Under the pieces are notes generated by a model. It was not told the origin of the DNA and ran no database searches. It saw only the letters and a list, made by a program, of their open reading frames with translations. DNA of 64,000 nt from Anaerostipes sp. Lineage in GTDB: Bacteria > Bacillota > Clostridia > Lachnospirales > Lachnospiraceae. Every line of letters begins with the position of its first letter. Position 1 is the first letter of the stretch. The position numbers were made by a program, and so were the translations under genes. Location: positions 1-64,000 of the forward strand of contig JAQVEG010000006.1 in NCBI GenBank assembly GCA_028697725.1. Reading direction: 5' to 3'. Shown piece by piece: positions 22,485 through 26,583 of the stretch.

Positions 22485-23567
22485 TTAGTCTAATATAATT
22501 TCATTTTTTTCACTGGTTGTCTCCTTTGGAAACCAATATGTTGTTTTATTTGCTATTTTCACCATAGTAAGCATTACAGGCACTTCAACCAATACTCCTA
22601 CCGTTACAGCAAGAACAACTGGAGAAGATGCTCCAAACAATGCAATCGCAACTGCAACCGCAAATTCAAAAAAGTTCGAAGCGCCAACTAACCCTGCAGG
22701 TGCCGCAATATTGTGTGACAACTTTAACATTTTTGCTGCAAAATACGAAACAAAAAATATGAAGAAAGATTGAAGAACCATAGGTATTGCCAAGAGCAGA
22801 ATATGTATTGGATTTTCAATAATCATATGACCTTGGTATGAAAAAATAATAACCAGCATCAGTAAAAGTCCAATAAAAATCAACTTATTAAATTTAGGAA
22901 CAAATTTTTCTTCAAAGTATTCCTTCCCTTTATTTTTAGTCATAAAAATTCTTGTTAAGATACCTGCAACAAGTGGAATAACCACAAACAAAACAATTGA
23001 AAGAATCAAGGTGTCCCAAGGGACAGAAAAACCGCCTGTACCAAGTAGAAATACCATGGTAGGTGCATACGCAACTAAAAGAATAAGATCATTACTTGCC
23101 ACCTGAACCAATGTATGCGCAGCATCACCCTTTGTTAAATGACTCCATACAAATACCATTGCTGTACAAGGTGCTCCTCCCAGCAATACTGCACCTGCGA
23201 GATAATTTTTTGCTAAATCAGCAGGAATAATTCCTTTAAATAAAACATAAAGGAAAAAAGCCATTATGCCATACATGGTGAATGGTTTAATTAACCAGTT
23301 TGCTACCCATGTAACAATCAATCCCTTAGGATGCTTTCCAACATTTTTTACACTGGCAAAGTCAATCTTAATCATCATGGGATAAACCATAACCCAAATC
23401 AGTATCGCTATGGGCAGAGATATCTGTGCATATTGCAGTTTGCCCAAAAATTCAGGTATTGCAGGCACATATTTCGAAATCAGAACACCTACTATCATAC
23501 AAAGGACAACCCAAACACTAAGATATTTTTCAAGGATTCCTAAGCTTTGTGTATTATTTTTTTCCAT
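22485..23567 (-). CDS. acr3: arsenite efflux transporter Acr3
   Basis: Ten-helix membrane protein of the bile/arsenite/riboflavin transporter family that exports As(III). The VLLGGAPCTAMVFVWSHLTKGD motif carries the conserved cysteine of ACR3, and NDLILLVAYAPTMVFLL follows. 360 aa. Its start overlaps the HesB-like gene by 14 nt, and it has a GGAG site. Downstream of arsA and arsD, it may couple to the ArsA ATPase, although ArsA classically pairs with ArsB. Confidence 0.93.
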   Translation of the reverse strand: MEKNNTQSLGILEKYLSVWVVLCMIVGVLISKYVPAIPEFLGKLQYAQISLPIAILIWVMVYPMMIKIDFASVKNVGKHPKGLIVTWVANWLIKPFTMYGIMAFFLYVLFKGIIPADLAKNYLAGAVLLGGAPCTAMVFVWSHLTKGDAAHTLVQVASNDLILLVAYAPTMVFLLGTGGFSVPWDTLILSIVLFVVIPLVAGILTRIFMTKNKGKEYFEEKFVPKFNKLIFIGLLLMLVIIFSYQGHMIIENPIHILLLAIPMVLQSFFIFFVSYFAAKMLKLSHNIAAPAGLVGASNFFEFAVAVAIALFGASSPVVLAVTVGVLVEVPVMLTMVKIANKTTYWFPKETTSEKNEIILD

Positions 23568-23851: not shown

Positions 23852-25594
23852 TTAATCAATTAATTCCTTTAATTTTTCACCTTTAATCTCATCGGCTTGC
23901 CATTTAACCGCCACAAAATTTCCCTTGGAAATTTCGTCTACTTTATTAATCCACTCAACTTCGTGATTAGCTTTTGCTTTCAAAGTAGCATTTGATGGTT
24001 CGGTGGCATAAAGTGAAGAATTGATAATCCACCATTTTGTACGGATACCAGCACGCTTTAAATCCTGCTCTAATCTCATCGCTTCATAAACTGGAGTAGT
24101 TTCAGCAAGCGTAACTATAATAACTTCTGTTTCCTCACCATTATGTAGCCTTGGCAATAATTGTTTTACTGACTCTGGAATATCTCCCGCTGTATGTGCA
24201 ATTTCACGATGATAACTCTCAGATGAATCTAACAGTAATAGTGTATGTCCCGTCGGTGCAGTATCAATTACAACAACCTGTTCCTCTGCCTTTTCCACAA
24301 TATCTGCAAAGGCACGAAATACTGCGATTTCCTGCGTACATGGAGAACGCAGATCCTCTTCCACATATGCGATATCTTCCTTGGACATATTTTTTCTTGC
24401 TTTTGTCAGAACTTCCTCTTTGTACTTTTCTAGTTCTGCCTTTTCGTCAATGTGACTCATAGTGATCCGATCTGTATCCTGAATGACGTATTTCAAATGA
24501 GCAGCCGGATCAGTTGTAGTCAAATGTACTTTTTCCCCTTTTTCTGCAAGTCCCAATGCAATAGCTGCTGCCATAGTTGTCTTTCCTACTCCACCTTTGC
24601 CCATGGTGAAAATAACTTTCTTATTGCTTGTATACAACTCATCAATCATATTTTTCAAACTTGGCACTTCATTTGCATGAAGAATTGCCTTCTCATAGTT
24701 CTGATTGTCCGTCACTAAAAGATTTCTTACATTATCAAGACCTGTTACATTGTAAGAACGCAGTGGAATCATATACTGGTCAAAATCCTTCAAACTTTCT
24801 GGTGTATTTTCCAGTGCCTTCTGCTGTTTCTGGTACAGACTTTCTGAAATCTTATCATCATGACTTGTGAGAACACCATTAATAACTAATGCCTGATTTT
24901 TTAATCCCATTTCAGAAAGTTCTTTGGACGCCCTCTCTACTTCACGTAATGGTGCACCCTCTGGTCTTGAAACCAAAATTAAAGTGGTTTTACTTGCATC
25001 AGAAAGTGTATCTACCGCTTTCTGATAAATATCTTTTCTCGCCGCCATACCGGAAAGCTGCCCTACCTTTGCAGTTCCACCATCCTGCTCCTCAATAAAA
25101 TCATTCCAAGCTGATGGAAGTGAAAGAAATCGAAGCGTATGTCCCGTAGGTGCAGTGTCAAAGATAATATAGTCATATTCCTTTTCATCTTTTTCGTCCG
25201 TTAAAAAATTTGCAAACTGATTAAATGCTGCAATTTCTACAGTGCATGAACCAGAGAGTTGTTCCTCCATATTAGCAATCACTGTATCTGGAAGTTTCCC
25301 CCGATATGGTGCGATAATGCTCTCTTTATACTCTTCCATTGCCTGCATTGGATCAAGATTTGCCACTACAAGTCCAGGTACTTCCTCAATTGGAACCCCC
25401 TGATTCGTCAACTCTTTTTTAAACACATCCTGCAAATTTGATGCAGGATCTGTGCTTATCAGCAATACCGTTTTGCCCTGATCTGCTAAGGTAACTGCGG
25501 TAGCACATGCAGTTGATGTTTTTCCAACCCCTCCTTTTCCTGTAAAAAATAAATATTTTGTTAATTCAATTTCTCTTGGATTAAATGTTTGCAT
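23852..25594 (-). CDS. arsA: arsenite-stimulated ATPase ArsA (two-domain)
   Basis: Pump ATPase that energises arsenite export. Two homologous halves each carry a P-loop GKGGVGKT (residues ~19 and ~334) and a DTAPTGHT signature (~147 and ~444), so it is a full-length fused A1-A2 protein of 580 aa. Cysteines near SGSCTVEIAAFNQF and SPCTQEIAVFRAF are candidate As(III) ligands. It has an AGGAGG ribosome site 24 nt after arsD, its chaperone gene. Confidence 0.96.
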   Translation of the reverse strand: MQTFNPREIELTKYLFFTGKGGVGKTSTACATAVTLADQGKTVLLISTDPASNLQDVFKKELTNQGVPIEEVPGLVVANLDPMQAMEEYKESIIAPYRGKLPDTVIANMEEQLSGSCTVEIAAFNQFANFLTDEKDEKEYDYIIFDTAPTGHTLRFLSLPSAWNDFIEEQDGGTAKVGQLSGMAARKDIYQKAVDTLSDASKTTLILVSRPEGAPLREVERASKELSEMGLKNQALVINGVLTSHDDKISESLYQKQQKALENTPESLKDFDQYMIPLRSYNVTGLDNVRNLLVTDNQNYEKAILHANEVPSLKNMIDELYTSNKKVIFTMGKGGVGKTTMAAAIALGLAEKGEKVHLTTTDPAAHLKYVIQDTDRITMSHIDEKAELEKYKEEVLTKARKNMSKEDIAYVEEDLRSPCTQEIAVFRAFADIVEKAEEQVVVIDTAPTGHTLLLLDSSESYHREIAHTAGDIPESVKQLLPRLHNGEETEVIIVTLAETTPVYEAMRLEQDLKRAGIRTKWWIINSSLYATEPSNATLKAKANHEVEWINKVDEISKGNFVAVKWQADEIKGEKLKELID

Positions 25595-25618: not shown

Positions 25619-25975
25619 TTAGCTTTCAATTGATACACCCAAAATCTTTGGTTTTTCACCTAATGCTTCGATTGGTAATTCCAGATACTCCGCAATTTCC
25701 TCGTTGCTTGGATATCTACCTTCTAAAACGATTTTCCCATCCAATGTAGTAACTGGAAGTTTGTCTATTCCAACCGTATTTACATATTTGTTTACTTCTG
25801 CATTGTTGATAAATTCCTGTGGTTCTTTGGATAAATTAAACCGATCCAGTTTGACCTCTTTTTTTGCAAGTGCTTTTATTACTGCTGAGATACGAATTAA
25901 TTCTGTATCTACTCCCACACCACTAAATCCTGTGTTGCAACACATAGCAGGTTCAAAAATCTGTAATTTTTTCAT
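25619..25975 (-). CDS. arsD: arsenite metallochaperone ArsD (third metalloid cysteine absent)
   Basis: ArsD delivers As(III) to ArsA and has weak repressor activity. The N-terminal FEPAMCCNTGFSGVGVD matches the family, with C12 and C13 present. The canonical third ligand C18 is serine here, and the C-terminal Cys pairs of the plasmid R773 protein are missing. The rest (RFNLSKEPQEF, GIDKLPVTTLDGKIVLEGRYPS) is well conserved. 118 aa. It starts with ATG after AAGGAGG, 69 nt downstream of a Cys-rich mini-ORF and hairpin. Confidence 0.93.
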   Translation of the reverse strand: MKKLQIFEPAMCCNTGFSGVGVDTELIRISAVIKALAKKEVKLDRFNLSKEPQEFINNAEVNKYVNTVGIDKLPVTTLDGKIVLEGRYPSNEEIAEYLELPIEALGEKPKILGVSIES

Positions 25976-26032: not shown

Positions 26033-26063
26033 ATCATTGCCGCTTATACAGAACGACAATGAT
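26033..26063 (-). promoter_or_regulatory. hairpin in the arsD leader
   Basis: 10-bp stem ATCATTGTCG / CGGCAATGAT (one G-T pair) with an 11-base loop on the minus strand. It spans the last six codons and stop of the 13-codon leader ORF and ends 57 nt before the arsD start. There is no T-run after it. Confidence 0.5.
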
Positions 26064-26085
26064 ACATTCTCTTGCAAAAACACAT
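26044..26085 (-). CDS. possible Cys-rich 13-aa leader peptide of arsD
   Basis: A mini-ORF, MCFCKRMYHCRSV, too short for the ORF track. It has an excellent ribosome site (AGGGAGG, seven bases before ATG) and three Cys codons (positions 2, 4, 10). It lies just downstream of the second ArsR-type operator, and its 3' half forms one arm and the loop of a hairpin. Such placement is typical of leader peptides that control the next gene. No homologue is known to me, and chance cannot be excluded for 13 codons. Confidence 0.45.
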   Translation of the reverse strand: MCFCKRMYHCRSV

Positions 26086-26135: not shown

Positions 26136-26149
26136 AACTTTATTTTTTT

Positions 26150-26170
26150 ACCGATGCTCTTCACATCGGT
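26150..26170. terminator. hairpin after arsR
   Basis: 7-bp stem ACCGATG / CATCGGT with 7-base loop, just after the arsR stop. In the arsR direction it is followed by As, not Ts; a T-run (TATTTTTAT) follows only on the plus strand. It may only partly stop transcription, leaving arsDA read-through. Confidence 0.35.
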
Positions 26171-26174
26171 ATTT

Positions 26175-26462
26175 TTATCTACTCTGTCCTGTTAGAATTC
26201 TTCCTATCTCCGCATTAAAACTCAATAACATTTCTTGATTTGCAGAATAATAACTCCACTTTCCTTCTTTTCTAACATTTACAATCCCTATATCACATAA
26301 TAATTTCATGTCATGGGAAAGTGTTGGTTGTGTTATTTTGAACTCCTCTAGGATGTCACAAGCACATAATTCTTTATCCGCCAGCATGGCAACTATTTTA
26401 AGTCTCTTTGAGTCAGCAAGCACTTTTAAAACTTTAGCATATCTGATATAGTCTTCTTCCAT
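26175..26462 (-). CDS. arsR: ArsR-family metalloregulator
   Basis: Winged-helix repressor released from DNA by As(III) or Sb(III). 95 aa, with the metal-site motif ELCACDIL (C33, C35) at the start of the DNA-binding region and recognition helix QPTLSHDMKLLCDIGIV. It is divergent from nothing and leads the ars genes. Its own promoter is flanked by matched half-sites, indicating autoregulation. Confidence 0.93.
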   Translation of the reverse strand: MEEDYIRYAKVLKVLADSKRLKIVAMLADKELCACDILEEFKITQPTLSHDMKLLCDIGIVNVRKEGKWSYYSANQEMLLSFNAEIGRILTGQSR

Positions 26463-26484
26463 CTTCTTACCTCACATTGATTTA

Positions 26485-26525
26485 TTTCTATGTGTTATTA
26501 TATTCCTTACATAGAAAAAAGTCAA
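26485..26525 (-). promoter_or_regulatory. arsR promoter with overlapping ArsR operator
   Basis: Minus strand TTGACT, 17-base spacer, TATAAT (26497-26525). The -10 box is bracketed by TTTCTATGT and ACATAGAAA (26485-26517), an inverted repeat whose half-site recurs upstream of arsD. Binding there would block RNA polymerase. Confidence 0.75.
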
Positions 26526-26583
26526 TGTGTATTTAAAAATTTTTTCAAAAAATAATATACAGATTTATATGAATCCAGTAAGA

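Follow-up and report, generated by a model that had tools for sequence, protein, structure and literature searches.

A constrained 13-codon cysteine-rich ORF between arsR and arsD in a Lachnospiraceae ars operon

Among arsenic-operon sensors, AfArsR has its type 2 site in the C-terminal region, at Cys95, Cys96 and Cys102 (PMC11868830). The locus analysed here recalls such a sensor thiol cluster, in that the pattern [DN]CxC[KH]-x(n)-C found in many of the Clostridia ArsRs that we collected resembles the peptide encoded by a short ORF next to arsR; here, however, the cysteines lie in a separate 13-codon ORF behind an operator-like site, and the ArsR itself is tailless. The metallochaperone ArsD, whose Cys12, Cys13 and Cys18 are reported to be essential to its function, is likewise a small three-thiol arsenite carrier encoded beside arsA (PMC4562236), a carrier role that is putative for the mini-peptide. 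Unlike ArsD, the mini-peptide has only 13 residues, no fold and the arrangement CxC...C in place of CCx4C, and the third cysteine is missing from the ArsD encoded beside it. Cysteine-responsive attenuators with polycysteine uORFs (Canestrari et al. 2020, as described in PMC9031893) also place a short ORF with Cys codons 5' of operon genes. As far as that description goes, these uORFs are leaderless and their Cys codons contiguous, whereas the mini-ORF is led by a Shine-Dalgarno (SD) sequence, has spaced Cys codons and yielded no attenuating structure. CutF, a copper-sensing nascent protein (PMC9973294), shares with the mini-ORF a peptide with metal-binding residues (putative for the mini-ORF) encoded 5' of a metal-related gene, together with a stem-loop, but CutF is exported, carries a C-terminal stalling-like motif and has a stem-loop that hides the cutO ribosome site, all three of which the mini-ORF lacks. 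An attenuating hairpin between arsC and arsD is known from ars1 of Bacillus sp. CDB3 (PMC4562236), again a hairpin 5' of arsD in a Gram-positive ars operon; that hairpin is terminator-like with a U-tract and has no described uORF, whereas the one analysed here lacks a U-tract. With related cases described in PMC9031893, PMC9973294 and PMC4562236, the statement in a preliminary description of this DNA that no described counterpart was known is too strong.

The ars genes lie on the minus strand of the window, the whole 64-kb stretch of DNA that was analysed, in the order arsR, hairpin, palindrome, GGGAGG, 13-codon mini-ORF, spacer of ~70 nt, arsD, arsA, a 101-aa ORF, acr3 and an SDH_alpha-family gene. 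The arsR gene (26175..26462) encodes 95 aa with the alpha-3 CAC present and the C-terminal CxC tail absent; its promoter (TTGACT-17-TATAAT, 26473..26529) lies within an inverted repeat (CACATTGA...TTTCTATGT / ACATAGAAA...TCAATGTG), and its start codon (26462) varies by haplotype between ATG, GTG and TTG. As the preliminary description had it, the gene that follows the mini-ORF is arsD (25619..25975; matches to NF033727 and PF06953), followed by arsA (23852..25594; TIGR04291, 829.6 bits). Further downstream lies acr3 (22485..23567; TIGR00832, 359 bits), which encodes an arsenite efflux transporter. The 101-aa ORF in the arsA-acr3 gap (23859-23554) has a TTG start and an SCCG motif and gave zero Pfam and NCBIfam matches.

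The mini-ORF (ATGTGTTTTTGCAAGAGAATGTATCATTGTCGTTCTGTATAA, 26085-26044) encodes the peptide MCFCKRMYHCRSV, with Cys at residues 2, 4 and 10 (C-x-C-K-x5-C) and no contiguous run of Cys codons. Its SD, GGGAGG (26098-26093), lies 7 nt upstream and is a strong ribosome site, which bears out the earlier account of a well-initiated 13-codon ORF with three Cys codons. Within the window, no other SD-preceded ORF 8-20 codons long contains three or more Cys; 20 shuffles gave four such ORFs in total. It begins 89-90 nt past the arsR stop with its own SD and ATG and is not part of the ArsR polypeptide; neither a signal peptide nor a C-terminal Pro-rich stalling motif was found in MCFCKRMYHCRSV. Four distinct haplotypes of the mini-ORF differ at six variable sites through at least seven changes, all of them synonymous (7/7, TAA to TGA included), an outcome with P between 2e-6 and 2e-5 under random change; this sample of four haplotypes apparently comes from one sampling site. 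Third positions differ at up to 5 of 14, and the same peptide is encoded throughout. The SD reads TGGAGG in the other haplotypes, with the SD core and the ATG invariant and GGAGGAAC unchanged in the alignment. Since ArsR differs at 5-8 of 95 residues and ArsD at 4-7 of 118 between the same haplotype pairs, the peptide is constrained at least about as strongly as a functional protein. Judged by this pattern of substitution, the mini-ORF is very probably a real 13-residue gene and likely translated.

Besides the window, four named assemblies carry the mini-ORF: Anaerostipes sp., Hespellia sp. (two) and a Lachnospiraceae bacterium, all four with 'Sandtown' in their titles; the pairs L002/L014, L003/L017 and L015/L035 each represent one locus found by two tools. 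Its known range is one clade, apparently of a single sampling site. When 392 genomes of the order and IMG/VR were searched for the peptide pattern, the window was the sole match, and no comparable Cys-rich mini-ORF was seen in ~55 other arsD upstream regions. Close ArsD relatives were also sought in plasmids and phages, where none exceeded 60%. Two other ArsD matches (L075 and L076, from two genomes of one genus, G1087 and G846) contain one in-frame TAA each.

The second half of the mini-ORF had been described as forming a 10-bp stem-loop. The hairpin itself was recovered, covering the 3' half and the stop codon (26064-26032), with a longer stem of 13 pairs and -14.2 kcal/mol by itself. Comparison of the leaders of relatives, proposed at the time as a check, showed an identical peptide wherever the ORF is present and a strong hairpin in each of the four haplotypes (-13.8 to -20.6 kcal/mol); with the peptide conserved, the refuting condition set at the time (neither ORF nor hairpin kept in close relatives) does not apply. 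When each haplotype's leader was shuffled 200 times, an equally strong local hairpin arose 0-2 times, although the leader folded as a whole is ordinary (z -0.62). Of the 14 pairs, four contain a mismatch in one or more sequences and none has undergone a two-sided change; the 5' arm is part of the coding sequence and thereby fixed. Neither a U-tract after the hairpin nor a terminator on this strand was found, and lacking the U-tract it is not an intrinsic terminator. It stops ~40 nt 5' of the arsD SD (25990-25986), leaving the arsD ribosome site outside the hairpin, and a search against Rfam gave no matches at gathering scores. In the free state, accessibility modelling shows a mostly open arsD start for three of four haplotypes, and a ribosome modelled at Cys2, Cys4, Cys10 or the stop codon shifted arsD-start accessibility in opposite directions between haplotypes. 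With no terminator and no consistent shift at the arsD start, the proposed attenuator would have no output, and on this modelling an attenuator reading is unsupported; the earlier suggestion that a change of fold controls arsDA expression is thus not borne out. The 5' arm can also form 8 bp with the arsD start (-9.4 kcal/mol); since the two sequences are coding, conservation of this pairing is uninformative. A switch between the local hairpin and this pairing was rejected, as there is no plausible state with the 5' arm free and the 3' arm blocked.

Three features of the locus were absent from the preliminary description: a likeness of the mini-peptide to ArsR tails, a cysteine loss in ArsD and an operator-like palindrome just upstream. 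Our ArsR comparison set comprised 40 distinct other ArsRs (45-63% identity), of which 27 carry CxC after residue 85, 33 carry at least two Cys in this region and three carry no Cys there. The tail motif is often [DN]CxC[KH], as in the gapless-group examples ITTQKENCICHAAK (L033) and ITTEQEDCICKNYKGSKCDS (L060). The window ArsR ends in ILTGQSR-stop, precisely where its gapless-tail relatives continue into CxC, and the mini-ORF gives M-CFCKRMYHCRSV, where CFCKRMYHC fits the CxC-[KH]-x(n)-C tail motif. When joined gaplessly to the window ArsR, the peptide gained 11.5 bits on a profile built from 17 [DN]CxC-tailed ArsRs, a subset picked after the motif was seen; 13 of 3000 same-residue shuffles and 1 of 3000 random tails gained as much, and the best spacing was zero offset. 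Against a profile of all 40 ArsRs the gain was only 4 bits, equalled by 777 of 3000 shuffles and not significant. At the level of sequence, the resemblance of the mini-peptide to an ArsR tail is therefore moderately supported. In the tree, the window ArsR stands beside ArsRs with longer-linker tails (L044-L047) and the tailless ArsR of L048 and adjoins the [DN]CIC group (support values 98/86 and 95/87), and from this placement its tail loss is probably derived; no mini-ORF was seen at L048. The DNA of the mini-ORF and spacer is similar to arsR 3' ends only within chance (14 of 100 shuffles), so descent of the mini-ORF from an ArsR tail is not demonstrated, and the likeness possibly arose by convergence.

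The cysteine loss in ArsD has the same distribution as the mini-ORF. CCx4C is present in 53 of 57 distinct ArsDs, and the four without it, which read CCNTGFSG, are exactly those of the mini-ORF clade. One clade thus combines a three-thiol mini-ORF, a tailless ArsR and an ArsD without the third Cys; with both losses in one clade, this is a single evolutionary case, beyond statistical testing.

The 14-bp palindrome (26136-26105) and the repeat that surrounds the arsR -10 (26529-26473) have ACATAGAAAT half-sites in common. L033, L050 and L055 have a comparable element ahead of arsD or of whichever gene comes next, and because such an element is kept beside ArsRs only 57-61% identical, a second operator for ArsR is the most likely identity of the palindrome. 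Between haplotypes, three of its pairs show two-sided change with G-U intermediates, and 20-77 of 500 shuffles match these measures of two-sided change; it may act as an ArsR operator, an RNA hairpin or both. A promoter scan near the palindrome returned no good promoter. The hairpin ACCGATG...CATCGGT 3' of arsR (26149..26171) is common to the window, L033 and L050, and is followed by an A-tract here and by a T-tract (terminator-like) in L033 and L050. L033 has the order arsR (tail present), hairpin, operator, SD and arsD with no mini-ORF, which identifies the mini-ORF and spacer as an added element. In L045, the arsR 3' region is matched by the hairpin-operator segment, and 0 of 100 shuffles do as well. 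Two origins were considered and rejected: a split of arsR by insertion of this segment, since the same segment lies 3' of arsR in tail-bearing relatives, and a mobile repeat, since the genome has no second copy.

Starting from the observed ORF and its coding constraint, the motif likeness, the two cysteine losses and the operator-like palindrome, the best single reading, held tentatively and at somewhat less than even chances, is that the mini-ORF product is an arsenite-thiol peptide acting in trans. A translated micro-gene between an ArsR-type operator and arsD would be transcribed from or past the palindrome; arsenite would relieve ArsR, and the mini-peptide would then be made along with ArsD and ArsA, bind As(III) by its three thiols and supply a ligand or hand-over function no longer carried by ArsR and/or ArsD. 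Free 13-residue peptides are usually degraded, which counts against this reading, as does the tail loss at L048 with no mini-ORF seen there. The more specific version, in which the sensor's arsenite-binding tail has been kept as a separate trans-acting 13-residue peptide that offsets the Cys losses of both ArsR and ArsD, we regard as doubtful. The chief rival of a trans-acting peptide is a cis-acting cysteine leader, somewhat unlikely in our estimate, in which ribosomes would slow at the Cys codons, owing to scarce Cys-tRNA or to arsenite on the nascent thiols, and so alter how the arsDA mRNA is translated or how stable it is. The Cys content (three codons of 13), the position directly 5' of arsD and the strong hairpin that spans the stop codon in each of the four haplotypes speak for such a leader, as do the precedents of mycobacterial Cys-codon uORF attenuators, as far as described in PMC9031893, and metal-sensing CutF nascent chains (PMC9973294). 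It is weakened by the missing terminator, the mostly open arsD start and its inconsistent response to ribosome position, the mismatched and uncompensated hairpin pairs and the spacing of the Cys codons, and the 8-bp pairing with the arsD start should not form alongside the stronger local hairpin.

If the sensor gene were in effect split, the peptide would dock on the ArsR dimer as a ligand-bearing subunit. The zero-offset fit between the end of ArsR and the M-CxC opening of the mini-ORF favours this, but DNA similarity to arsR 3' ends stays within chance, the alpha-3 CxC by itself may be enough for sensing, and arsR was not split by insertion of the hairpin-operator segment, given that this segment is ancestral to the 3' region of arsR; we consider a docking subunit improbable. 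About as improbable is that translation as such matters, with the mini-ORF loading ribosomes onto the arsR-arsD gap and shielding the mRNA from Rho or RNase: the strong SD and the gap of ~200 nt suit this account, which leaves the conservation of every residue, all three Cys included, unexplained. That a chance ORF was retained through shared ancestry or through the hairpin is very unlikely, for even with only four haplotypes from apparently one site and a hairpin over its 3' half, its third positions diverge while its residues are unchanged and its stop stays in place as TAA or TGA. Translational bypassing that links ArsR to the tail over the gap, as in T4 gene 60, is barely conceivable: a stop codon and hairpin do lie right behind the last ArsR codon, and an SD-like site 5' of the point of resumption, but the good SD and ATG already account for initiation, the take-off codon AGA does not match the codon before TGT (ATG), and hairpin and operator also occur where no tail follows.

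Should the peptide bind arsenite and act in trans, few genes with a role in metalloid handling would be as short as the mini-ORF, and a sensor ligand would have moved between proteins within one operon; as a detached tail, the peptide would rank among the smallest of arsenite carriers or of sensor subunits. We know of no earlier leader ORF of an ars operon, and the mini-ORF would be the first if it acts in cis. ORFs this short are normally passed over by annotation pipelines.

The ars cassette as a whole (26542-20991) is 90-93% identical between the Anaerostipes-like genome and the Hespellia MAGs. The match begins just 5' of the arsR promoter and ends near 20991 in L103, which, with this identity, suggests that the cassette moved by horizontal transfer. 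At the end of the shared cassette lies the SDH_alpha-family gene (PF03313, 22431-21133), perhaps, by resemblance, an L-cysteine desulfidase; through this gene, a tie of sulfide or cysteine to arsenic is possible.
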